Below are positions 2,201-43,332 of a DNA stretch of 64,000 bases, piece after piece. A program made the position numbers and the translations under genes. Within the stretch, counting starts at the first letter, position 1. Each line of letters begins with the position of its first letter. Under the pieces are notes generated by a model. That model was not told the origin of the DNA and did no database searches. It was given only the letters and a program-made list of their open reading frames with translations. The stretch covers positions 5,332,001 to 5,396,000 of the forward strand of contig JAKZAN010000004.1 in NCBI GenBank assembly GCA_023053545.1, read 5' to 3'. Source of the stretch: Lepidurus packardi. Lineage: Eukaryota > Arthropoda > Branchiopoda > Notostraca > Triopsidae.

Positions 2201-3025
2201 AATGCCAAACAAGTATTTCTAGTGTTTAAACATTAACTGAAAGAAAAACCTACTCAACTAGATTTGGGGAAATGCCGTCTACCAGCAACAACTTTATTCT
2301 AACAGCTCAAGTACTCGTGTTTTCAGTTCGCAATTCGTAGTTTCATTACTTGTTATCACTAACTTTGGAAACGCCATGTGAAATCGAAATGTGAAATTGG
2401 TCTATGTAAAATGGCAAATACGAAGCGAGAAATGGTAAAATGCGAAATGGGTAAACTGCAAAACGTAGTACAAAACGCATTAAAATGGAAAATTCTATTC
2501 AAACATTTAAAACGAAAATTATAATTATATTGAGATATCAAAGACTGAAACACGAAAACTAAAAAGGTAAAGTGTGATGTTAACATATAATTATTAAAGT
2601 TCTTCAGATGAGTCCTTGTAAGAGACCTTGTAAGAGTCCTTGTACTCTAATTACAATTATAATAAAACCTTTGTTGCAGAACCAAATCTTTAGACCAAAT
2701 CGTACTGACTTACGTAGCCAAGCGACATATTGCAGCGTGTTCGCACGGTGACGTTTCGCATTCCGCGGTTTCTTCACGCGTCGATACCGAAATTTCTGAC
2801 GATTCAATTCCAGAGAGAAATTTGATCCCGATACGTCAGACGGAGAAAAGTGTGAAAGAGCGTGGAAGTGTGTTTTGTATTTTTTTAGCCGGCTAGGTCC
2901 TTATACATTTTTTCTTACTTGTAAGCGACAAGTCAAAAGGTAAAATGATTTCTTTTTAGTATACCTATACGTTAAGAAACGTATACTAGTCCTTTTTGTA
3001 AATAATAGTAAGTTTTCTTTAGATT
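2201..3025. promoter_or_regulatory. divergent promoter region, PSME3IP1 / DDX43-like
   Basis: This 825-bp stretch separates two head-to-head genes and must contain both 5' ends. A GT donor near 2940 (AAAAGGTAAAATG) and an acceptor ending TTTCTTTAG just before the helicase start suggest a spliced 5'UTR for that gene. Positions 2360-2500 are a degenerate low-complexity array of AAATGNGAAAT-like words, and 2610-2644 holds three copies of a 12-bp unit (GAGTCCTTGTAA with variants). No TATA box or other clear core element was identified. Confidence 0.45.
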
Positions 3026-6786
<3,761 letters not shown>

Positions 6787-7063: not shown

Positions 7064-8067
7064 TTAATTGACGTGAAACGGTGAATTAAAGTAATTTACT
7101 TCGAACTTCTGCCATTTATATTTTGCAAGCTTTTTGGAGCCCAGCAAACTTTGAATCAGGTAATGGCCAGTAGGGTGCCCATACCCAAAGAATTCCGCTC
7201 CTTTGCATTGCGGAGGGGGTAAACTGCCCAATCCTAGCGCGTAGTAAACCTTCTTGAGTAGCGATGCGTGACATTCGTCTGCAGTTGAAGCGGATATCGT
7301 CAAGCCGGGCTCGGAATCGGTGGAGATTTCAAAATGCGGTTGTCCATCCTTGTCGAAGATTTTGCAGGTGTATTCACACGCTATGTGAGGGTTCTTGACG
7401 CCGGCGTAAGCTCGAGTGGAGCAAAAGCCAGACGTGTAAATGAACTGTTCGTCATGGTAGCTCGCTTTGTCAGACATGACCTCTCCCAGACTGTGGATTG
7501 TTAGGTCTCCAAGGGTCAAAGGTAAAACAGGACGGCCCAATACATCCAACGGAACAGCCTGGACCATTTTTTTAGCCTTAGCGCGACCCTGGGCGCTTCT
7601 TCGTCCGCCAATTTCTGATTTAACATCTTCTGGAAGCGACAGTTTAGATGCAGGCCGTTTGACCGCAGGTTTCTTCTTGGCTAAGGCATCCGGTGTTGGA
7701 GCAGCCAAAGACAAAGCCGCTGATGAAGAAGATTTGTTGACACCTTCTAGAGGCTCTGTACAAAATCGTCTTCAAATTTAGCTAAACAAGTTAAGTACTA
7801 ACTAGAAATTTACCTGGCGATTGTTGAAGTGTTAAAAGTTTTCTTAGTAGGTATTTACGCTCTTCTTGGGCGATTATTAACTGGCGTTGGAGCTGAGCTG
7901 CTCTATCACACAATGCTGCATTTTCCTGGAAGTAAAAGGGAAACCATTTTGAAAAATGAATGTATATAATAGTTGAAGTAGTCTTAACTTACATAGGCTA
8001 TACCTTTGACAATTTTATGTAAGACTTTATATTTTCTTTCATATTTGCCGTCTGTTGCTGGCGGCAT
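7064..8067 (-). CDS. TBRG1: TBRG1/NIAM-like nuclear protein with FYRN and FYRC domains
   Basis: Three minus-strand exons, 7993-8067, 7814-7925 and 7064-7755, give 292 residues (human TBRG1 is about 411). Exons 1-2 encode a short coiled-coil segment; ENAALCDRAAQLQRQLIIAQ followed by EERKYLLRKLLTLQ matches the N-terminal signature of TBRG1. A basic Lys/Ala/Pro linker follows, then FYRN (LTLGDLTIHSLGEV to FIYTSGFCSTRAY, about residues 140-180) and FYRC (CEYTCKIFDKDGQPHFEIST to GAEFFGYGHPTGHYLIQSL). FYRN/FYRC occur in chromatin proteins such as MLL; vertebrate TBRG1 is a growth-restraining nuclear protein linked to ARF/p53. The start is the first ATG of exon 1 and precedes the conserved coiled coil. 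The protein is shorter than in vertebrates, mainly in the linker and C-terminus. A repeat related to a MITE begins 17 bp upstream of the ATG. Confidence 0.92.
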
Positions 8068-20166: not shown

Positions 20167-23100
20167 TTACTCGTCCGGCATCACTGAACTTGGGGCAACT
20201 TCCAGCAGTAACTGCAGAAATGTGGTGATCGCGCCTGATGGATGATAATACACAAACTCCGGTTAATATAACACCGCGGAAAACTGCGGAAAACAAAATA
20301 TAGACTTTTACCCATGCCCGGAAGCACCATCTTATAGTGGACAAATGGGACATAAAATATCAGTCCGGCTGCAATGAACATCGATGCGTAAAGGTACCTA
20401 TTACAAGGAAAAGAATTCCGTTATTTCCAAAAACTCCCAAGTAAATTTTTGTGGAGGGTTACTTACTCTAGCTTGGGCTCGTCGATAATTGGTGCAATCA
20501 CCAAATAGATGGAAGCAATGAGGACTATAATTGGGATTATGATGGGCACCTTATAGGGTCTAGGAGCGCCTTTTCGTGTGAACCGCATGACAATGAGTGC
20601 TAACATAGCCCCACCGTAAAAGATCCACGCCGTGAAGCTGAAGAAATTAATAAGACTTGCAATATCACCCGGAATGATCATGGCCACTGCAATCAATGTC
20701 TTTATTAAAAGAAGGGGGGGAAAGTCTCGAATTAGAATCTTTCATGTTGCGTTATTCAATTATATAATCATTCATCGGTATAAATGATGTTCTTACATTA
20801 AAGAGTAATGCAGGCGAAGGTGTGAGGCGCTTGACGTTGACATAAGATAAAATATCCACCAAATGTCCTTCTCGACTAGCCACGTAGCAGAGTCTAAAGG
20901 GGTATGGTCATAGGAAACATTATAATAAATTCTTACAGTCCATGTGTGCGAGAGATGATCTTAGGATGATGGTTTACGCATGGAGGCGCAGGTTGGCAAG
21001 AAGGACTAGGGTAGTTCTGGTGGTGTGTTTCGCAATGTTTAGGAATGAACACGCACCGCGACTTCGCCTCTCCTCGTCAATACCAGCGTCGGAGTTTTAA
21101 GACCGCCCACCGCACGCGAAGTATAGATAGTGAAGGCATACAAAAACTCATATAAGCGTAAGAAAAATGGGCTACAGCTACCTTCCGCCCACGAAGAGGG
21201 TTCCGTTAGCAGCTCCGAATGTGGAAATACACACGGCTAAAGGTATAAGCCAGGCCATGACACCCAAAGTTCGATTTCCAAACGTCTGTTTCCCAAAACA
21301 AGAGACAACAAAAGACACGAAAATGACAGAAGGACATACGTTATAAGCGATCACATCACTCTTATGTCACCCGACAGAAATTGCACACACAAAAAACTGC
21401 ACACATGGAAGGGGTATAATACAACATGCCACTGAAGTGCAAGCACAAAGCCAGAATGACGAAGAAAGCAATACAGTGATAAAAATGTGCCAATCAAACC
21501 TTCCAGCGGTAAATTGGGATCCGTTAGCAGCTCCGAAAGTCGACATGGCTACCGCTAGAGGAATCAAAAAAGCTACGGGTCCGAGCACTTTATTGCCCCA
21601 ATCCTACATGCCAAATCGGTGAAATCAATCACTGCAGCGTGCAAATTAAAATTCTAAGTGATCCCAGTGACATGCGTTCCACAACAATCTTAACAATCCC
21701 CTAGTATATAAAAAAAAAAACGTGAGGCATACAAACTTACCACAGCAACCGCTTCGGAAGCCATCATCTCATCCGGAGAGAGAACGGCAAGATAAGCCAC
21801 GTTGACCATTAGGTAACATACCGTGACTAAAGGTATTCCAATGAGAATAGATCTCGGTAAGTTTCTAGAAATAAAAAGCGCCCCTTTTTGAGCTACTTTT
21901 CCAAATATATCGGAATCGGAAAATGTCAAAACAATAAAAAATGGCTTACACGAAAGGGTTTTTGAGTTCCTCGGTTACGTAATTGAGGTTGTTCCTGCAA
22001 CAATATATTTTATGTTTTTTATATTATTTCAATAAAACGAAATTCTATCATGACATGTCCCCCGAAATTTTTTTACCATCCATCATATGCCCAAAGCCCA
22101 CTATAAAACGCTGTTGCAATGTCGCCATACGAAGTCGTGGATCCACGGAATCCTTGAGCCAAATATTGGGTATTGCCTAGTCCAGAAAACGTACATGAAA
22201 ACCGAATCTCGCAAGAAATCTAAACAAGAAAAACCTCGCATGAAGATAAGAATTAGAACCATTATACTCACCGATGCCAATCATGTAAAGTCCTCCTGCA
22301 ACAATAATGGCTACTGCTATCAACTTCGCGGCAGTGAAAATGTTCTGCACTTTCGTGGCCAGTTGCACGCTGAAGCAGTTGATAAAGGTAATCAAACCTG
22401 GATTTCCCATTCCAGGCAAAAAAATTCAGAAAATAAACACGGATTAGTCTAAAAGACTTAGGGCTTAAAAGTAACGCATATAAATAACACAGCAAGCTTA
22501 GATAAAAACTTAATCCAAAAAGCTTACACATGCACGCAACCGCCAGGAGTTTGAATGTCAGTTCGGATTCAAATAGATTATCGCAAAACCCCACGCGTTC
22601 CATTACAGGTCTGAGGGAGTACTTTGCAAAACTTAAGGAAATAATGGCCAAGGAAGATGGTTTCAATAGTAAAACCGACACCCAAGAATACAAAAAGGCA
22701 GGTATAGGACCCCAGAATCTATGCACGGGTCCAAACGCATCCAAAAAGTAAGCATATTCGCCGCCGGACTTGGGAATCAATGTCCCCAGTTCGGCATAGG
22801 CCAAAGATCCTAAAAAACATAAACAACAAACACAAAAAGTAATCCCTTTTGGGTCAAGCAAATCAACCAAACTGTAGTACCAAATGCTCTAAAACCATGC
22901 AGTTAAAAATATAAATATATAAGATTGAGGCATTCGCTGTCATTCGCTCTACACTACGCTTTCCGTTCGCCATGCCAATACTCTGCGTATGAACAATGAA
23001 TACCGATAGTAGCCGCGCAGACGAGCTTAATAACCACAGTTGGCGGTTCGCATTCCGTGACAAAGGCTTCGACTGTGTATTTCGCGAACGACAAAGTTAT

Positions 23101-23538
23101 GATGGCCAGCTGGGATGGTTTCAGCAATAAAGTGGATACCCAGCAGAATAAAAAACCCGGCAGATCACCAAATGCTTCCATAAAGTACGCGTACTCGGCC
23201 CCTGACTGTGTAATCATTGTACCCAGTTCCGCATAGCCCAAGGCGCCTTTTATTTTATTAATTATTCACATGAAAATATGCCTCCAATGAAATTTTGCAG
23301 CTTTGAGGATTTGGCAGATATTATGGCATTTTTAAATACCTAGCATAGAAAGGATTCCGCAGGCGACCCAAGTGACCAGAAACAAGCCTGGAGAACGGGT
23401 GCGGATGAGTAAGTCAGAGGGTGACACGAAGATGCCGGACCCAATCATGGTACCCACAATTAAAGCCACCCCACTGACGAGTCCCACCCGTCTCTCGAGG
23501 TGAACAGCGTCATTCGCCGTTGCTCCGCCCCTCTCCAT
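20167..23538 (-). CDS. SLC7A9: b(0,+)-type amino acid transporter, SLC7A9-like, with two alternative exon pairs
   Basis: Plasma-membrane light-chain amino-acid exchanger of the APC/LAT family. Minus-strand exons: 23340-23678 (5' limit uncertain), A 23004-23246 or B 22528-22809, 22272-22397, 22077-22176, 21950-21994, 21741-21864, C 21500-21603 or D 21182-21285, 20797-20893, 20467-20699, 20312-20397 and 20167-20234. From the ATG at 23538 the A+C form is 474 residues (human b0,+AT 487). TM1 has the [12 protein letters not shown] substrate motif; later blocks [64 protein letters not shown] and [10 protein letters not shown] fit SLC7A9 better than LAT1/2 or y+LAT. An upstream coding exon may exist, since the first exon has an acceptor at 23679 and stays open above the chosen ATG. 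Pairing with an SLC3 heavy chain is known for the family, not seen here. Confidence 0.88.
21182..21603 (-). other. duplicated exon pair C/D (TM8 region) of the transporter
   Basis: Exon C (21500-21603) and exon D (21182-21285) are both 104 nt with phase 0 in and 2 out. They encode [20 protein letters not shown] and [20 protein letters not shown], each followed by STFGAANG, then SQFTAGR or TLFVGGR. Each alone restores the SLC7 sequence up to [10 protein letters not shown]; together they would shift the frame because 104 is not divisible by three. That is strong structural evidence for mutual exclusion. Confidence 0.88.
22528..23246 (-). other. duplicated exon pair A/B (TM2-TM4 region) of the transporter
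   Basis: Exon A (23004-23246, 243 nt) and exon B (22528-22809, 282 nt) encode homologous segments: [20 protein letters not shown] against [20 protein letters not shown], then [18 protein letters not shown] against [18 protein letters not shown]. Both have good AG/GT borders and the same phase (1 in, 1 out), and each alone completes the domain when joined to 22397. Splicing both would duplicate membrane helices, so mutual exclusion is the likely use. B is longer by 13 residues, mostly around [13 protein letters not shown]. Confidence 0.85.
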
Positions 23539-23678
23539 TTTGTCCCCGGACCCAGAGCTACCGGAGTCCCGCGGCGACAACGAGCTGGATGACAAAGATA
23601 GCGCGGAGGCTCCGCCCGCTTTGTCGGCATCATTGCCAATGTGATTTCGATTATTGGGGGTCGAACGTTTCCGGCCTC

Positions 23679-31919: not shown

Positions 31920-34900
31920 ATGGCTGAAATTAGCTCGAAGCGCGAACTAGCAGAATGGGATGCTGCGGCAGCAGCAGCCAATGGAACTCCGCCCCTTTCG
32001 CATCACCACCATCACGCCTACCATGCACAATTCGCACCCCATATTCCGTCTTCTTACGCATTACCCCAATCCCTACCTGCGTATGCCCAGCAGAGCTACT
32101 CGTACCCCTTACAACAAAGTTACCCTCCCCAGCAAATGCACTACCCACCCTTACCCCATTTGCAAATTTCTCCCCCTCCCACGCAATCTCAGCACTACGG
32201 TTTACCCTCGCCTCCCGTTTCTTTGCATCCTTATCAATCCTACGAGTCGCCCCATCCCACTTATCACCAGCACCCTCTCTACCACCACCCCCCTTACGGT
32301 CATCACTTGGCTCCGCCTTCGCAGCCCCAAGAAATGCCGTACAACCTTCCGGCTACACCTCCTACACCTACATCACACAGCATACCCTCCCCAGTGCTGT
32401 ACCATCCTCCTACACCCAACTCCATGCCCGAAACCCCGCCCCCTATAAGTAAACCCACTCCCCTTTCTGCTTTGCCCACCACGCCCATCACTCGAAGCGA
32501 GCTGCCACCCGTAACGAACCATGTCACGCAAGGACTGCCTCCGATGGTTAGCAATCATGTCCAGGTAAGAACTTACTCTTAAGTGCGTATTATTACGTGT
32601 AGTCATGTAATTAATTCCACTCGTGGGGGGAAAAAGTCTTATCAGAACGTTCCAAATATGAACGTTCCGGCACCTGCGCCTCAGTACTTGCTGGACGATA
32701 TCGGCGAGCTAACACCTGAGTTGCTAAATCAAGGCTGGAGGAAATGTTGGAGCAAACGCGAAAATCGATATTACTGTTGGAACCAAAGGACGGGCGAATC
32801 TTTGTGGGAGTTACCTTCTGCTCGACCAATGGTAAATAGTTAATTAAAAGATTAAACAGACCTTTTATAGCCTTGTTGAACTAGTATGATCCCGTATCCG
32901 ATCCACTGGGGATAGGGATACAACCGTCTCAGGTCGGCGGTGGAATCAAAAGACGGGCTTCCGAAGAAGCATTGGAAAGTCCTGCCGCCAAACGCTTCAT
33001 TCTCGCGTAAAATATCGCATATTAACATATGTTCGTGTTTTTTTATTTTATTTATTTTTTCTAGGGGGCCATGGGACTTGGAAGTGCCTACGAATGTGAT
33101 CATATGGGAACGCCTTGCGTCCACAGTACCACACCCACATCCCGATGTGGAAATCCTACGGTGCAATTTACTGGCTAAACTACGTCAGTCGTACCACGAA
33201 ATGTGCCATTCAAGAGAAGGTATTTTTATACCGCAATGCTGAGAAATCTTATTTTAATTAATAATGCTTTAGGGGTTGAAGCACCCAAGGAATCTTTTAA
33301 CCGGTGGCTTATGGAACGCAAAGTAGTCGATAAAGGCACGGATCCCTTATTTCCCATGCAGTGTGTCCCTGAAGTGTCCCAATCCATGTACCGAGAAATC
33401 ATGAATGATCTGCCCATGAAATTGGAACGGCCGAAATACACGGGTGATGCCAGGAAACAGCTGTCGAAATACGCGGAAGCCGCCAAAAAGATGATAGAAT
33501 CAAGGTACGTTCAAAATGTACAAAAAGAATGTACAGGTGCGCTAAAGATAGCTTTACAAGTGCGCAAAAGTAGATTTTACGAAATGCGCTAAAAATAGAT
33601 TGTTTTAATAAATTCCATAGGAACGCAACATCAGAAAGTCGCAAGATTGTCAAATGGAATGTTGAGGACACGTTTCAGTGGCTCAGAAAAACTGTAGGAG
33701 CTACGTACGATGATTTCCAAGAACGATTAGCCCATTTGAAGGTAAACTGCTGGGCATTTTCGGAAAATCCTGGACAAGAAAAATATGTGCATATTTTTAT
33801 TGGATTTTTTTTAGCGCCAGTGCACACCACACCTAACTGAGGCAGCCAAATCATCGGTGGAGGGTATTTGCTTGAAAATTAACACCTTGTCTGGCGAGTA
33901 TGCGAAGAAAATCAAGGACAGACAGCAAGAATTGTACAAAGAACAAGAATTGCCAGGTAAAATTACATTAATAATGATTCGCCCGTTAAATTAATTTCGT
34001 TTTTTCTGTTTTGTTTTTTATAAGACATGGACTCCGCTCCTCCTCTACTCCATTCTAGAAAAGTCTGGTGTTACCCGGTGCAGCTATGTTCACCTTGTCC
34101 ACGTCTTCCTCCTGTCGAATTTCTCCAAGACAAGGATCAAACCATGTTGCGTTATAAAGGAGACGCGGTTAGGATTAACACGCTTCATTTCCAGAAACTG
34201 GTACGTGTTTGAACACGATTTCACTAGAAAATCTTTCTAGAAAGCCTTAATATTGACGATTTGTATCATAGGAACAACTGTACCGATACAACTGTTTTGA
34301 CGACCGCAAGTTTGAGTGGTTTCTACCAAGAGTGTGGTGCCTATTGAAAAGGTACCACACCTATTTGGGTGTGGCAGCTGGAGAAGGGGCGGGCACACAA
34401 GGGGCTTTACCGGTCACCGTCTTTGAATGCCTTCAGAAACACTTTGGAGTGACCTTTGAGTGCTTTGCCTCGCCTATGAACTGTTATTTTAAGCAATATT
34501 GCTCAGCTTTTCCTGATACGGACGGCTACTTTGGATCAAGAGGGTAAAAGCTCTTATTTTTATTATTATTTTTAGAAGAAATGAAAGTTAAATGATTATC
34601 TCTTCGTATTTGAAGGCCTATTCTGGAACTCAAAGCCGTTTCGGGTTCTTTTGAAGCCAACCCACCTTTTTCAGAAGAACTGATGGAAGTGGCATTGTCT
34701 CACTTCGAGAAAATGTTGGGGGATTCCTCAGAGCCTTTGTCGTTTATTATGCTCATACCTGAATGGCGTGACCCCGCCCCACCTGTGCTCCGTCGTTTGG
34801 AAGATTCGCCATGGAAGAGGCGTCAAGTAGTGGTGCCCACGTATGAACACGAATATCGACACGGCTTCCAACACGTGGTTCCGAGAAGCGAACTGAACGT

Positions 34901-35081
34901 GAGAGCGGCCCATGGGACAGTGATTGTTTGGTTGCAAAATGAAGCCGGGTACGCACGTTGGGGGCCAACAGATGAACGCGTGGATGCTTTGCTGGAAGCG
35001 TATAGACCTGGTCGGGAACGGGAACGAGACAAGCAAGAGTTACTTAGTCCTCCCCGGCAAGAAACCCCTTCCGTCAGATAA
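31920..35081 (+). CDS. PCIF1: cap-specific adenosine-N6 methyltransferase (PCIF1/CAPAM)
   Basis: Nuclear enzyme that in vertebrates converts cap-adjacent Am to m6Am and binds phosphorylated RNA polymerase II CTD. Ten exons: 31920-32564, 32646-32831, 32885-33006, 33065-33219, 33273-33504, 33621-33741, 33815-33956, 34025-34200, 34272-34543 and 34616-35081; 838 residues (human 704). The extra length is a Pro/His/Tyr-rich N-terminus encoded by exon 1. A WW domain follows ([26 protein letters not shown]). Core blocks match human PCIF1: [60 protein letters not shown] and IPEWRDP. The catalytic NPPF motif is intact. The start is the first ATG; the low-complexity exon 1 makes the exact start less certain. 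Divergent from SS18. Confidence 0.94.
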
Positions 35082-37769: not shown

Positions 37770-40700
37770 CTAATGCATAATGGCATCACCCTCTTCGTCC
37801 GCTAGCAAAGAAGTGGTGGGTGATGTGGTTCGACTGCCCGAACTACCCCCTTCGCTGCCCCCGCAGTAATGCTGGTGCTTGGAATCTTGGTGTTTCTTGA
37901 GATTATCGGAGGAGGAAAAGGTGGAGGAGGGGCACAGGTCGCATTTGTAGGGGCGATCTGGTACACTGCGTGCTGCTGACGCATAGTCGTTATTGTTGCC
38001 ATGCTTGCGAAGTAAATGCCGGTCGCAGTTGGATTTGGTCGTAAACCATAGTGGACATTGTGGACACTTGAACGGTTTCTGGCCAGTGTGAGTCAGAATG
38101 TGTCTCCGTAACGAGGACGTCCAGGGAAACTTGCGTGCGCAAAAGGGACACGCCACGCGATGCGGCGCCGAGGAGTACGCACTCTTCTTTTTGGGCGGTT
38201 TGGAGCTGTCCTGTTCGCCTCGATGACTGGTACTTTCATCCGAACCCGAGTGCTCGCTACTCGTACATTCCGTGTCTTCCGCACCCGTATCATGCTCGCC
38301 GCTCTCTTCGCCCATTTCCTCGCTGCTCCTCTGAAAGTAGTGCTGGAAATTATGGGCCACGGCATTGATAAGTAGTTTGTCCACACTCGCCAAGTCCTCC
38401 TCTCGGTGCGAACCGCCGGAACTGGGTTGTTTAGGGTGCGGTACCGTGCTGGAGACCACCACCGTGGTTGACGACGCCACTGTTTCCTTCTCTTCGTCAA
38501 TTACTAATTCGCCGTCTTCTTCCGGTTCCTCTTCGTCATCATCTTCCATGTCGTCGTGTTTCTTTTCCTCCTCTTTGATGTGTTCCCGCTTCATTTTCAA
38601 CTGCTGGGTAATCGCTTGACGAACCTGGTCCGAGATGGCTATTTTGGTATTAGCCACGACGGCTGACGACGATTCCTTTCGAGAGACTTCGGTAGACGAC
38701 GAGGAATCGGGGGTCATTTCCAGCAAACTGGCTGGCGCCGCAGCCAGTCTCCGAGCGCCTCGTGGACGGGTGGTCCAGACGTCGGGATGTTGCTGTTTGA
38801 TGTGTCGTTCCATGTTGGATCGGAGCGTGAACCGGGCGGTGCAGTGTTCGCAGCCGAAAGGTCGCTCAGTGCGGTATCTGCGCTGCTTTTGCTTCTTCAT
38901 GAGGACGCCATTCTTGATGACCATCTTGACGGGCCCGTTCTTGTCATCGTCCTCCCCCGCTCGGCTCTTAATGTGACTTTTGGGGTTGGACGCGGAAACG
39001 GACAACTGCGAGTGGGAGTTAGCGACGGGAGTGGAATGAATCACATTGGCGGAGCTAACTGGCATCAACAGTCCACTCTCGGTAGCCATTTGGTGCTGCT
39101 GAGCTTGTCTGAGCACGTCGTGGTGGGCCGCAGCCAAGGCTAAAGCCGACAAGTCCAAGTTGGCCGGGTAGCGCGAGTTCTCTTCGCTGCTCGTCTTGGC
39201 TTCGAGGCCCGCGAAGGGCGAGGGATTGTAGAAGAACGGTAGCTGGTGGTGTCCAAAAGGAGACGCGAAATACGGCAACGAGGGCATGAACAGCGACGAC
39301 GGGGTTAAGCCGGAAGGCGGCGAGATGTGTAACGGAGTTTGGGAGCTGGCGGGCGCCGAGGCCGTTTCGTTAACCGACGTAGGCTGACTGGAGTAATGCG
39401 ACGAAGGGGTTTTCGGTGGTGGACAGCTTTTAGCTTGGCGTTTTTTACTCAAATCCAGGACGTCTACGGTCAAATCCAACGGCGCGTCCTGGAAATCCTC
39501 TTCTTCCTCGTTCAAATCCTCTTCTTCCTCCTCAAGTTCTTGACGTTCTCGACGGCGCAATTGACGAACTTCCTCCATGTCTTCTTCATCTTCGTCGTCA
39601 TACTGTGTTGCTCGCGACTGTTGTTGCTGGAATTCGTTGGCGAGGGAGAAGGCATGCATGAGCGACGAGAATGGGTGGGGACGCTGGTCGTCGGACGAGG
39701 GTAAGAAGCCGCTGCTGCCCAGGTCGTCGGATTTGTTGCTGCGGCTGTAGCGATACTCGGGCGACACCGAGGACGCCGGTTTGTTGATGAGCGTGGAATC
39801 TTCGTTGGCGTGGTAGATGATGGCGGCTTTGAGCATGTCGCGGGTGTTTTGCCCGTGCCGATTGCGCAAGTGCCGCTCACAATTGGCTTTGGTTGTGAAG
39901 GCAAACTGACAGAGTTTGCACTCGTACGGTCTCTCGCCGTTATGCGTGCGCATGTGCCGGATGAGCGCGCCTTTATCCGAGCTAACGACCGGACACAGAT
40001 TGCAGCGATACGGCGGGTGAGTCAGGTGGACGCGATTATGGCCTTTGAGGGCGCGGAGATTGGGGAACATGGCCGTACATAGCTTGCACGGGAATTCGCC
40101 GCGCATCTTCATCTCGCGCAAGTGAGCGGAAAAGGGGTCGTCTTCTTCGTGACTGAGCAGGTCGTCTTCAATTTTCTGGGCGCTGAGGGACAACATGGCC
40201 GGGGACATCGGGGGTTGCGGGGTCCAGCCATTCGCTGAGCGGTTCGAGCCATTCAATGAACCCGGATGGGGGGACTGGCCCAGTTGCAAGTCCAAAACGG
40301 AGAAAAATGCTTCTTTGGACGACCTTTCGGCGGCTGAGCAGCTGCGCAAGCATTCGATCTCGGCTTCGTCATCTTCCTCGTACTTGTGGACTATTGACTT
40401 TGGGGGTTGTCGCAGGTCCAAGCTGGCGGAAAACTCGTCGTCGCTCGACTGGCGCTTTCGGCGTTTGCCGGTCGATGAAGCCTCGGAAAGGTAACTGGAA
40501 TGACTATGATCCGAGTCGTTATCTGACTCGTTGTTGTGCTGCTGATGGTGGATGGGGGTAGGAGGCGCGGTAGCAGAGGATGACTGCTCTTTGAGGGCAG
40601 CGCAATGCGTACGCGTATGTCGGTGCATGTTCCCGTTGGTGTTGAAAGCAGCCCCACAGTGCTTGCATTTGAAAGGTCGCTCGCCGGAATGCACGAGCAT

Positions 40701-43332
40701 ATGACGGTCCAAGGAACTGCCCGAGCTCAGAAGTTTCCCGCAAAGCGGACAAGCATGGGAACGTGGCGAGCCGGAGGTGCCTGAGAGGGACGACGCATCG
40801 TCTCCATCGTTGCTATAATGTGGGTCTGAATCGGGAGTTCCCCGTCGAGAACCTGAATCTGACACAACCGACTGTTGATCCATCGAAACAGCTACGGATT
40901 TCATTTCCGCCAAATCCTCACGAGGAGTGACTGCCACAGCCACCTGTTATGCAACGAGAAAAACAAAAAGAGGCGCACATATTAGTACAAATTGCACACA
41001 CAAGTACATATCCATGGCGTAGCTGAAATTGCGCCACGTTCCCGAGTTTCTAACCCGCACTACCACATGTAGGATTCTTGAGGAAAAGGGCTTACCTGGT
41101 GCTTGATAACACGCAAAGCTTTGCGTTTGCGGGCACCCACTAACGCCGAGGTTGTGTTTGTGGGAGTTGTAGTATTGGCTGTCATATTGACCGTAACGGT
41201 TGAAGTAGTTTCCGGACGCATATTGTCGGGATCCACAATGTTTGCAGCATCAAACGCTCTAGGCGGGCTATCGCACTCTGTAAGTACAAGTCAATAAGAC
41301 AATACAATCTCAATTCGTTAACATAAACACGTTCATCGTAGGTCCGTACTCAGAACTTAGATAAACGCTCCGAAAACCGTAAATTTTAATAAAGTAATGT
41401 TAGATTAACTACAAAAAGTTAATTACGTTCTGTGTAGCACACTCTTAATCCACACATTCTTTAACGAAAAACAAATCACTTGAAACTTTGGTCGCACACG
41501 ATAAAAACAAAAACTGAGACGTTTCTGACTATGAAATAGGATCAACGTAGTGACTCATCCCAAACACGTCTTTACTCCACGGGGATCAGGTAGTGTCTGA
41601 CTTGTAAAGACTGACTAATTCGAACGTTAAGGGCGAGTCTCAACCTGGGCAGCCGAAAACGGGAGAGTGCCGTAGACAAACCCCCCAACCTCTCGGACAG
41701 GCCAAACCTCCTCCTCGGCTAAGATAGGAAAAGGGAAAGAGGGAAATGTGCAGCGGTTGTGCCCTGACGCAGTACCGAGGAAGCTCAAATGACGTCAGGC
41801 GGACCTTTGATTTTATTGTTGAAGAAAAGCAAGAGGTTGAAGGGAACGGAAGTGATGCAAATGGGAAGACGGAGGTGCAAAAAAGGGAGGAGCTTAGGGA
41901 ATTTTTGGCGTTTTGCTTTCTTCTTACCAGATAGCGAATCTTTTGTGTCTTTTACTAAATGCCCCTTTACTTGTACCTTGATCGCTCTCGGTTAGTTAAT
42001 CGTCAAATTTATAAAATGCATTAAAGATCAGGAAGACGTGGGCGTAATTGCCACCACACCAGTTTCCTTTGATCCCCTATCTGGCTCCTCGATGCACGCA
42101 GGAAAAAACGCAAATGAACAACGGTGGTTTTCCGTAACGAATCTGTTCGCCACAAATCCGCGTTTCCTTCTGATATGGAGATAGCTATAAATACAAATTT
42201 TATAACTCACACACATCGGCAATGACTGTACCGTTTACGTATCCTTTAAATTCAGAATGTTTTACGGGGAATTTTCATTCGCCGATTAAAGAATTTCCCG
42301 TAAAATTCCTAATCTAGATTTAGCCGTAAGAACTTCCTGTAAGGCAGATAATAATGCAGTTTGCACATCTCGTGGTGGGGGGATTCTAGAATTGCGTGAG
42401 AGCTTGCCTCATTGGGCATCACACAGGTGCATGCCATGGGATCTGAATCATCTTCGTCGTCACCTTTCACGACTTGAGTGCGTTGCTGATAAAAAAAAAA
42501 CCCGGCTCCGAGGAAACTGGGATGTTTAAAGCAAGCCGGTTGGGCAGGTTTATCTCCCCTTTTGCTTGCTCACACGCATAAGAACACAAATACAGGACAC
42601 AGTCCACACCACGCCTTGACCACCCCAAAGAAAAAAGGTCGTTCATTTGCATAAGATTTTCCTTCCGGTGCCATGATGTGGTCCCACATCCGACTTGAGA
42701 CACAGGCATACAGAGCGAAGGAAATTTACCTGCTTTCACGTCTCGACGGTTTGGATTTCCCTTTCTTAAACACCTCGACACTAAAGGATCTCTTAGCTGC
42801 TGCATAACTAACATGTCTAACCAAAGAGACGATGCCAAATTCCACGCGTGTCTCACCCCATATTTATTCCTCTGACTTAATTTCCTCTTACGGACGTCCA
42901 CAAGTAGAAGAAAAAACAAAAGTAAGAGCAACAGAGTCGGATTTTTGGCGGATCAACTTCAGCGCATAACTACACATGTACTTGACGTCAGGTTTTTGGA
43001 AGGCCAAGACGCCACATCACGTCATCCCTAGGTGCATTTTCTTTTTGGATAAACATATAGATAAAAAACGGATGACTTGCGGTGTAAAATGACAATGATC
43101 CATTTCCAAGTTTGTTGGAATTACTCACATACAACCTGAGACTTGAAAAGTACACCGCATCACTACGGAAACAGTTCAAGAAAGAAAGAGCTCTCGAGGA
43201 GGAAACAATGATAATATTTAATGGAAGGGCATCGTTAACGCATTTTTTACCTGCTGTGCGTGAATGGACGTGGTCCATCGGCAAGGCCATGTCACTGTGC
43301 CCTGGAGAATGCACGGATGTGATGCGCATCAT
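37770..43332 (-). CDS. RREB1: RREB1/hindsight-like C2H2 zinc-finger transcription factor
   Basis: Nuclear DNA-binding repressor/activator; relatives are vertebrate RREB1 and Drosophila hindsight (pebbled). Minus-strand exons 43251-43332 (tentative), 41096-41277 and 37770-40943 give 1145 residues. Nine C2H2 fingers lie in four groups: two near residues 153-200 ([20 protein letters not shown], then [17 protein letters not shown]), three central ([54 protein letters not shown]), one [17 protein letters not shown], and three C-terminal ([52 protein letters not shown]). [14 protein letters not shown] carries CtBP-binding-like motifs after an acidic coiled segment. The proposed first exon starts [12 protein letters not shown], has an upstream in-frame stop and the phase fits, but the 1.97-kb intron and lack of conservation leave it uncertain. 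The two downstream exons are firm. Confidence 0.88.

Follow-up and report, generated by a model that had tools for sequence, protein, structure and literature searches.

Background

Two neighbouring exons of equal length, each encoding a version of transmembrane segment 8 (TM8) of an amino-acid transporter, raise the question of whether one gene makes several transporters by choosing between them, how old the two versions are and what the choice could change in the protein. The exons lie in a stretch of 64,000 nucleotides from Lepidurus packardi, which is referred to here as the window, with positions counted from its first letter. A first-pass annotation had covered the TM8 pair, while the second duplicated pair of the same gene, A/B, was missing from its entry. 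The reading preferred here, and held to be likely, is that of an SLC7A9-like gene in which two exon pairs, A/B and D/C, arose by tandem duplication and are spliced in a mutually exclusive way. Each productive mRNA would then take one exon from each pair, and up to four proteins with one fold would result. Comparisons were made with paralogs from the same genome (108.6 Mb, 344 contigs) and with solved structures.

Results

Gene model

The transporter gene lies on the minus strand and, by exon assembly, spans at least window positions 23678 to 20167. The exon order in the transcript is E1, A, B, E3, E4, E5, E6, D, C, E8, E9, E10, E11, and all exon borders in the model are AG/GT. The first coding exon identified, E1 (23340..23678), encodes TM1 with the motif GSGIF; its 5' end and start codon are candidates only. 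It is followed by the alternatives A (23004..23246, 243 nt) and B (22528..22809, 282 nt), then by the constant exons E3 (22272..22397), E4 (22077..22176), E5 (21950..21994) and E6 (21741..21864), the last of which is joined in the model to either D (21500..21603) or C (21182..21285). The intron between D and C (21286..21499) is 214 nt long. The constant exons E8 (20797..20893), E9 (20467..20699) and E10 (20312..20397) come after D or C, and the last coding exon, E11 (20167..20234), carries the stop. Combining either of A and B with either of C and D gives four products, all open to this same stop, with 520 codons before it when A is used and 533 when B is used. No second copies of other exons were found when the exons from E1 to E9 were compared with the gene region, the remaining weak matches having E > 0.05. 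Elsewhere in the window, neighbouring reading frames (37770-40946, 34614-35081, 7064-7771 and 3023-3496) matched Pfam families for C2H2 zinc fingers, a PCIF1 WW-type domain, FYRN/FYRC and KH domains.

Identity of the transporter

The best PDB matches of the three isoforms searched were chains of b0,+AT (SLC7A9), with 556.5 bits for A-C, 528.6 for B-D and 529.6 for B-C; these matches of 529-557 bits compare with 383-397 bits for LAT1. Pfam AA_permease_2 was recognized in both the A-C and the B-D protein, and the A-C protein aligned with 6yup without gaps until near the C-terminus. In a tree of the constant exons the gene grouped with mammalian b0,+AT and six paralogs (L032, L033, L034, L037, L039 and L041) with support 100/99, and LAT1, xCT, L035, L036 and L042 fell outside this group. 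Asp233 and Asn236 of b0,+AT in TM6, and Cys144 in extracellular loop 2 (EL2), were aligned with identical residues in the A-C isoform, the Asp being encoded by E4 and the Asn by E5; in the B isoform a Cys was likewise aligned with the C144 position (HMMER). According to an excerpt of PMC9110406, Asp233 and Asn236 are important for cationic versus large neutral selectivity, the C144S mutant is disulfide-less and EL2 is bonded to rBAT. By sequence similarity, the gene is SLC7A9-like (b0,+AT), the light chain of a heteromeric amino-acid transporter, grouping with b0,+AT and not with LAT or xCT. b0,+AT is a transporter of the kidney and gut type and carries cationic amino acids and cystine together with rBAT.

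The TM8 pair

The description of C and D as equal-length exons of phase 0/2 proved correct. Both are 104 nt long, with AG acceptors and GT donors (gtttga for D, gtagct for C), and both start between codons and end two bases into a codon, each giving 35 amino acids. D is the first of the two in transcript order. That they encode alternative TM8 segments was also borne out: LAT1 Cys335 and Ser342, which are assigned to TM8 in the part of a review consulted here (PMC8399266), align with exon C, and C and D align with each other without gaps. The amino acid identity of D and C was 64.7% (E about 1e-10) in a BLAST comparison covering the window and 13 fetched loci. At the nucleotide level 62 of the 104 positions are identical, and the same residue is encoded at 21 of 34 codons, whereas in 20,000 random-substitution controls the number averaged 10.7 (sd 2.0) and never exceeded 19. 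The similarity of C and D exceeds chance.

The pair has diverged extensively, with a dN of 0.42 and a dS of 1.61, the latter being rough since there are only about 27 synonymous sites. Since 21 of 34 residues were retained at a dS of about 1.6, more than in any control, it appears that neither exon was drifting freely for most of the time, which argues against long neutrality of either C or D and is compatible with a recent loss of use. Thirteen TM8 columns have a uniformity of 75% or more across 12 other sequences; C matches 11 of them and D all 13.

It had also been claimed that joint inclusion of C and D would break the frame, and it does: D followed by C leads to a stop within C, with 474 nt remaining to the last junction, and the skipping of both leads to one in E8, with 401 nt remaining. 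With stops 401-474 nt ahead of the last junction, transcripts with either wrong choice would be expected to be removed by nonsense-mediated decay (NMD), so that frame and NMD together could police the C/D choice, though not that of A and B. These same stops would suit a gene in which the pair is mainly an expression switch, double inclusion or double skipping producing NMD targets that lower the transporter level rather than adding protein diversity. We think this quite improbable, because any 104-nt exon would suffice for such a switch, and it leaves unexplained both the two diverged TM8 sequences with their conserved residues and the in-frame A/B pair.

The A/B pair

Exons A and B, with 60.6% amino acid identity (BLAST) and the same phases, 1/1, form a second homologous pair in the gene. 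They cover the end of TM2, TM3 and EL2; their dN is 0.39 and their dS is saturated. Both pairs show GT-AG and compatible splice borders, similar length, the same frame and homology, the features by which WebScipio recognizes mutually exclusive tandem exons, as given in an excerpt of PMC3228551. Inclusion of A and B together leaves the transcript in frame (614 codons), as does the skipping of both (439 codons), and hence the reading frame alone does not enforce the A/B choice.

Among the 12 introns of the model, the poorest splice sites are those of exon A, in both its acceptor (28% pyrimidine) and its donor (4 of 9 consensus positions). The sequence before it at 23247-23266, AATAATTAATAAAATAAAAG, has almost no pyrimidine tract, in contrast to the B acceptor. 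Exon A may be rarely used, or its use may be regulated. This weakness is one of several points that would fit a different explanation, in which each pair would include one relic exon, perhaps A and/or C, still open but hardly ever spliced in. Exon C deviates at two of the 13 conserved TM8 columns, and about 21% of 34-codon frames in the six introns beside the paired exons are open by chance, which makes openness by itself weak evidence of use. The relic explanation is nevertheless considered improbable. The residue retention between C and D, beyond any of the 20,000 controls, is hard to reconcile with it, as are the 11 conserved columns that C does match, the retention in A of Lys-Pro in TM3 and of a Cys in EL2 at the C144 position, and the AG/GT borders of all four exons.

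Age of the pairs and the shared block

The first-pass annotation had attributed the TM8 pair to recent duplication or gene conversion on account of a shared word. The sharing is real, and the word is 18 nt long rather than 16: on the minus strand TTCGGAGCTGCTAACGGA occupies 21202..21219 (read 21219-21202) in C and 21520..21537 (read 21537-21520) in D, where it forms the codons for FGAANG. With up to three mismatches allowed, two matches were found in the window against 0.06 expected, and the only two exact copies found in the 108.6-Mb genome were those in C and D. The block consists of six consecutive identical codons, while only 3 of the 15 other same-residue codons match (permutation p 0.02, post hoc). 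A common codon preference is disfavoured as the cause, given that the block was absent from all 11 paralog TM8 exons examined, that the paralog codons vary at that place and that there was no other exact copy in the genome.

Apart from this block, there is little to suggest a recent TM8 duplication. Only 62 of 104 nucleotides are identical, dS is about 1.6, and 12 of the 21 same-residue codons differ in their nucleotides. A BLAST comparison between the introns on either side of C and D (plus strand, E up to 0.1) returned nothing beyond one 11-nt word, TTTGTATGCCT (E 0.04). This word lies on the minus strand close to the 5' ends of two introns, the one preceding D (21725-21735) and the one following C (21134-21144), and could be due to chance or be a splicing element. 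A recent origin is thus highly improbable, and on their divergence both exon pairs are taken to be old. The suggestion of gene conversion survives in a reduced form, as a possible local event confined to the 18-nt block and suggested by the run of six codons; the block may be a short conversion tract, or it could be a splicing element common to both exons.

Paralogs and the polarity of the versions

The 13 paralog loci (L032-L044) were found to have one TM8 exon in 11 cases and none in two (E up to 0.01), a count that leaves aside matches on the contigs C42, C43 and C44, which are intronless frames, and on C239. A second TM2-TM3-like stretch at L037 was rejected as a duplicated exon; it has a stop, lies upstream of L037 E1 and looks like a broken neighbour. 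Several other b0,+-type transporter copies are themselves broken, carrying stops or having lost a splice site: L038 (C2), which sits between L037 and L039, L040 (C6), which adjoins L041, and L043 (C3). In the closest paralog, L032 (G000:C3:12094500-12100500; 59% identity), TM2 through TM8 and part of E8 form one open frame (2893-3816), as if its introns had been lost through recombination with a spliced mRNA holding one TM2-3 exon and one TM8 exon. Intronless amino-acid permease frames of 444-503 amino acids, about 30% identical, were also encountered (L005 on C43, L016 on C42 and L017 on C44); those of C42 and C44 gave identical scores, and the three are possibly bacterial contigs in the assembly.

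Sequence features divide the exon versions between the paralogs and the outgroups. Exon B has an insert of seven residues between TM2 and TM3 that is shared by all six b0,+-type paralogs used in the trees, and the same place is also filled in the broken copy L043 and in the L037 fragment. The insert is absent from A, as it is from mammalian b0,+AT and the rest of the four reference proteins, and from L035 and L036. Position 12 of TM8 is Phe in D and in four of the six b0,+-type paralogs, the other two having Val, and is Trp in C, in both b0,+AT references, and in LAT1, xCT, L036 and L042. Exon C is in this respect outgroup-like and D paralog-like. Overall identity barely separates the versions. 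Against 6yup, A and B have 42 and 40 of 80 residues identical and C and D both have 20 of 35; against 7nf6 the counts are 46 for A, 42 for B, 19 for C and 21 for D. B is slightly closer than A to xCT (42 versus 39 of 80) and to LAT1 (39 versus 34 of 80). With identities so nearly equal, the polarity is drawn mainly from the insert and from borderline tree tests.

The fragments or broken copies L038, L040 and L043 and the distant L044 were excluded from all trees, and L042 also from the joint tree; in the A/B tree the L042 row is poor and includes read-through intron letters. Stops in paralog rows were written as X, and some best matches run into intron letters (e.g. L034 E9). The single-exon trees were weak, with A and B as sisters at p-AU 0.28 and C and D as sisters at p-AU 0.11. 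In the joint tree, whose rows were A+C and B+D concatenated, forcing AC and BD to be sisters cost 11.8 log units (p-AU 0.050). The placement of B-D with mammalian b0,+AT was rejected (p-AU 0.020), as was that of A-C with the paralogs (p-AU 0.0496). The best joint tree has B-D with the paralogs (86/92, below the star threshold); it does not have A-C with mammalian b0,+AT, a grouping that costs 2.5 log units to force and was not rejected (p 0.135). With borderline support (p-AU about 0.05), these results suggest that A and C are the ancestral versions and B and D the paralog-like ones.

A further candidate explanation is that B and D did not arise by tandem exon duplication and were instead acquired from a paralogous gene, through ectopic insertion or conversion. 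Their position with the paralogs in the joint tree would be expected on this account, and both score highest against the paralog L034 (54 of 93 and 25 of 35 residues identical). It would require two separate exon-sized insertions with flanking splice sites, each beside its homologue, while ancient duplication followed by the loss of A and C in the paralog line takes fewer steps; ectopic entry is accordingly regarded as rather unlikely. The preferred reading remains that both exon duplications are older than the paralogs, which would have retained only the B and D types: A and C would be versions predating the b0,+-type paralogs of this genome, and B and D the type that is found singly in those paralogs. 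A bolder version of it, which we advance only tentatively, holds that the gene has two full sets of substrate-facing hash helices, an ancestral A+C set that is mammalian b0,+-like and a derived B+D set, chosen coordinately, and that the b0,+-type paralogs descend from or parallel B+D alone. If so, isoform diversity and paralog diversity would be two outcomes of the same ancient TM3/TM8 exon duplications.

Control of splicing

Several ways in which the choice between D and C might be enforced were considered. 1) Weak donors were rejected as a sign of regulation of this pair: D has 6 of 9 consensus positions and C has 7 of 9, within the range of 4 to 7 for the donors of the gene, in which only exon A stands out. 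2) Steric hindrance of the OGDH type, in which no more than about 50 nt separate the branch point from the upstream 5' splice site (an excerpt of PMC7969005), is unsupported by the sequence. The AG-exclusion zone of the D-C intron (73 nt) begins 140 nt from the donor and its one yUnAy is at 156, and the D donor and the branch point are probably separated by more than 140 nt. In the A-B intron the AG-exclusion zone begins 157 nt from the donor. 3) Incompatibility with U12 splice sites is disfavoured, none of the six introns beside the paired exons having a U12-like donor. 4) Complementary intron elements that enforce exclusion, which the first-pass annotation had proposed looking for, were sought in six intron pairs and two region folds, and none was convincing. 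The introns before and after D showed complementarity above that of 199 of 200 shuffles, as one of six pairs tested; for the other five, 16 to 183 of 200 shuffles were equally strong or stronger. The regions around D and C, when folded, gave weaker structures than their shuffles (z about +2), 99 of 100 and 20 of 20 of which folded at least as well. Beyond the policing by frame and NMD, the C/D choice would be made by regulators outside what the sequence revealed.

Position in the fold and substrate contacts

In an excerpt of PMC8399266, the hash domain is described as TM3, 4, 8 and 9, TMs 1-5 and 6-10 as pseudo-symmetric repeats, and the substrate side chain of relatives as directed mainly towards TM3, TM6, TM8 and TM10. 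The paired exons of this gene fall on TM3 and TM8, both helices of the hash domain and, from the 5+5 repeat, presumably symmetry mates. The same source suggests that T123 of b0,+AT matters for cystine; at this position A and B share a Ser, and at the one after it A has Gln and B has Ser. In the TM8 pair, both versions have Thr at the position of LAT1 Cys335; at the position of Ser342 and the one after it, C has Thr-Leu and D has Ser-Gln. These two changes, T/S and L/Q, at and just after the Ser342 position, are the C/D differences nearest to a modelled substrate contact. The FGAANG motif between the Cys335 and Ser342 positions is invariant. With the motif identical and its flanks different, the exchange of C and D would spare the most conserved part of the pocket and alter its edges and the rest of the helix.

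It is plausible, from residue positions, that the exchange changes substrate preference, as the first-pass annotation had also supposed. Splicing would in this way retune the transport path, in side-chain preference, affinity or the coupling of TM1 and TM8, and the A/B choice would also alter the loop through which the heavy chain is bonded. Should both pairs be in use, the gene would be an amino-acid exchanger that can be retuned by splicing at two symmetry-related substrate-facing helices, and its isoforms would make a natural chimera set for asking which helix sets the selectivity of SLC7 light chains.

Comparison with known systems

Alternative exons of this kind have a precedent in SLC7A2, where they are mutually exclusive. 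SLC7A2 and zebrafish slc7a1a (exon 6a/6b) have alternative TM8-TM9 segments, and the products CAT-2A and CAT-2B of SLC7A2 differ in substrate affinity, according to an excerpt of PMC7584565. The present gene resembles them as an SLC7-family transporter with an alternative segment involving TM8. With the boundary given in that excerpt, the CAT segment begins at about the second half of TM8, takes in the cytoplasmic loop and extends into TM9. Unlike CAT-2A/2B, C and D end with TM8, the next loop being encoded by the constant exon E8; the protein is a light chain of the heteromeric type, and there is a second pair for TM2-TM3. From the b0,+AT proteins 6yup, 6li9 and 7nf6, with which it shares Asp233, Asn236, Cys144 and the TM8 motif GAANG, the gene differs, in a comparison made at the protein level, by its two tandem exon pairs and by the seven additional residues between TM2 and TM3 in the B version.

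Mutually exclusive tandem exons are a known kind, of which this gene looks like a new case. Such exons recur in ion-transport gene families (an excerpt of PMC9741552), and 'SLC7' has no occurrences in the main text of that article. Among the matches listed from the open-licence literature, as titles and the starts of abstracts, there was no report of paired exons in an SLC7A9-type gene. Like the exons of Dscam, Mhc and Cacophony, as described in excerpts of PMC9741552 and PMC3228551, those found here are tandem and homologous, with equal phase and nearly equal length; unlike those genes, this one encodes an amino-acid exchanger. What this gene adds to these systems is the second pair, the placing of the two pairs on substrate helices related by symmetry and a partial correspondence of exon type to paralog type; this correspondence provides a test case for whether alternative exons come first and are later split up into gene families.
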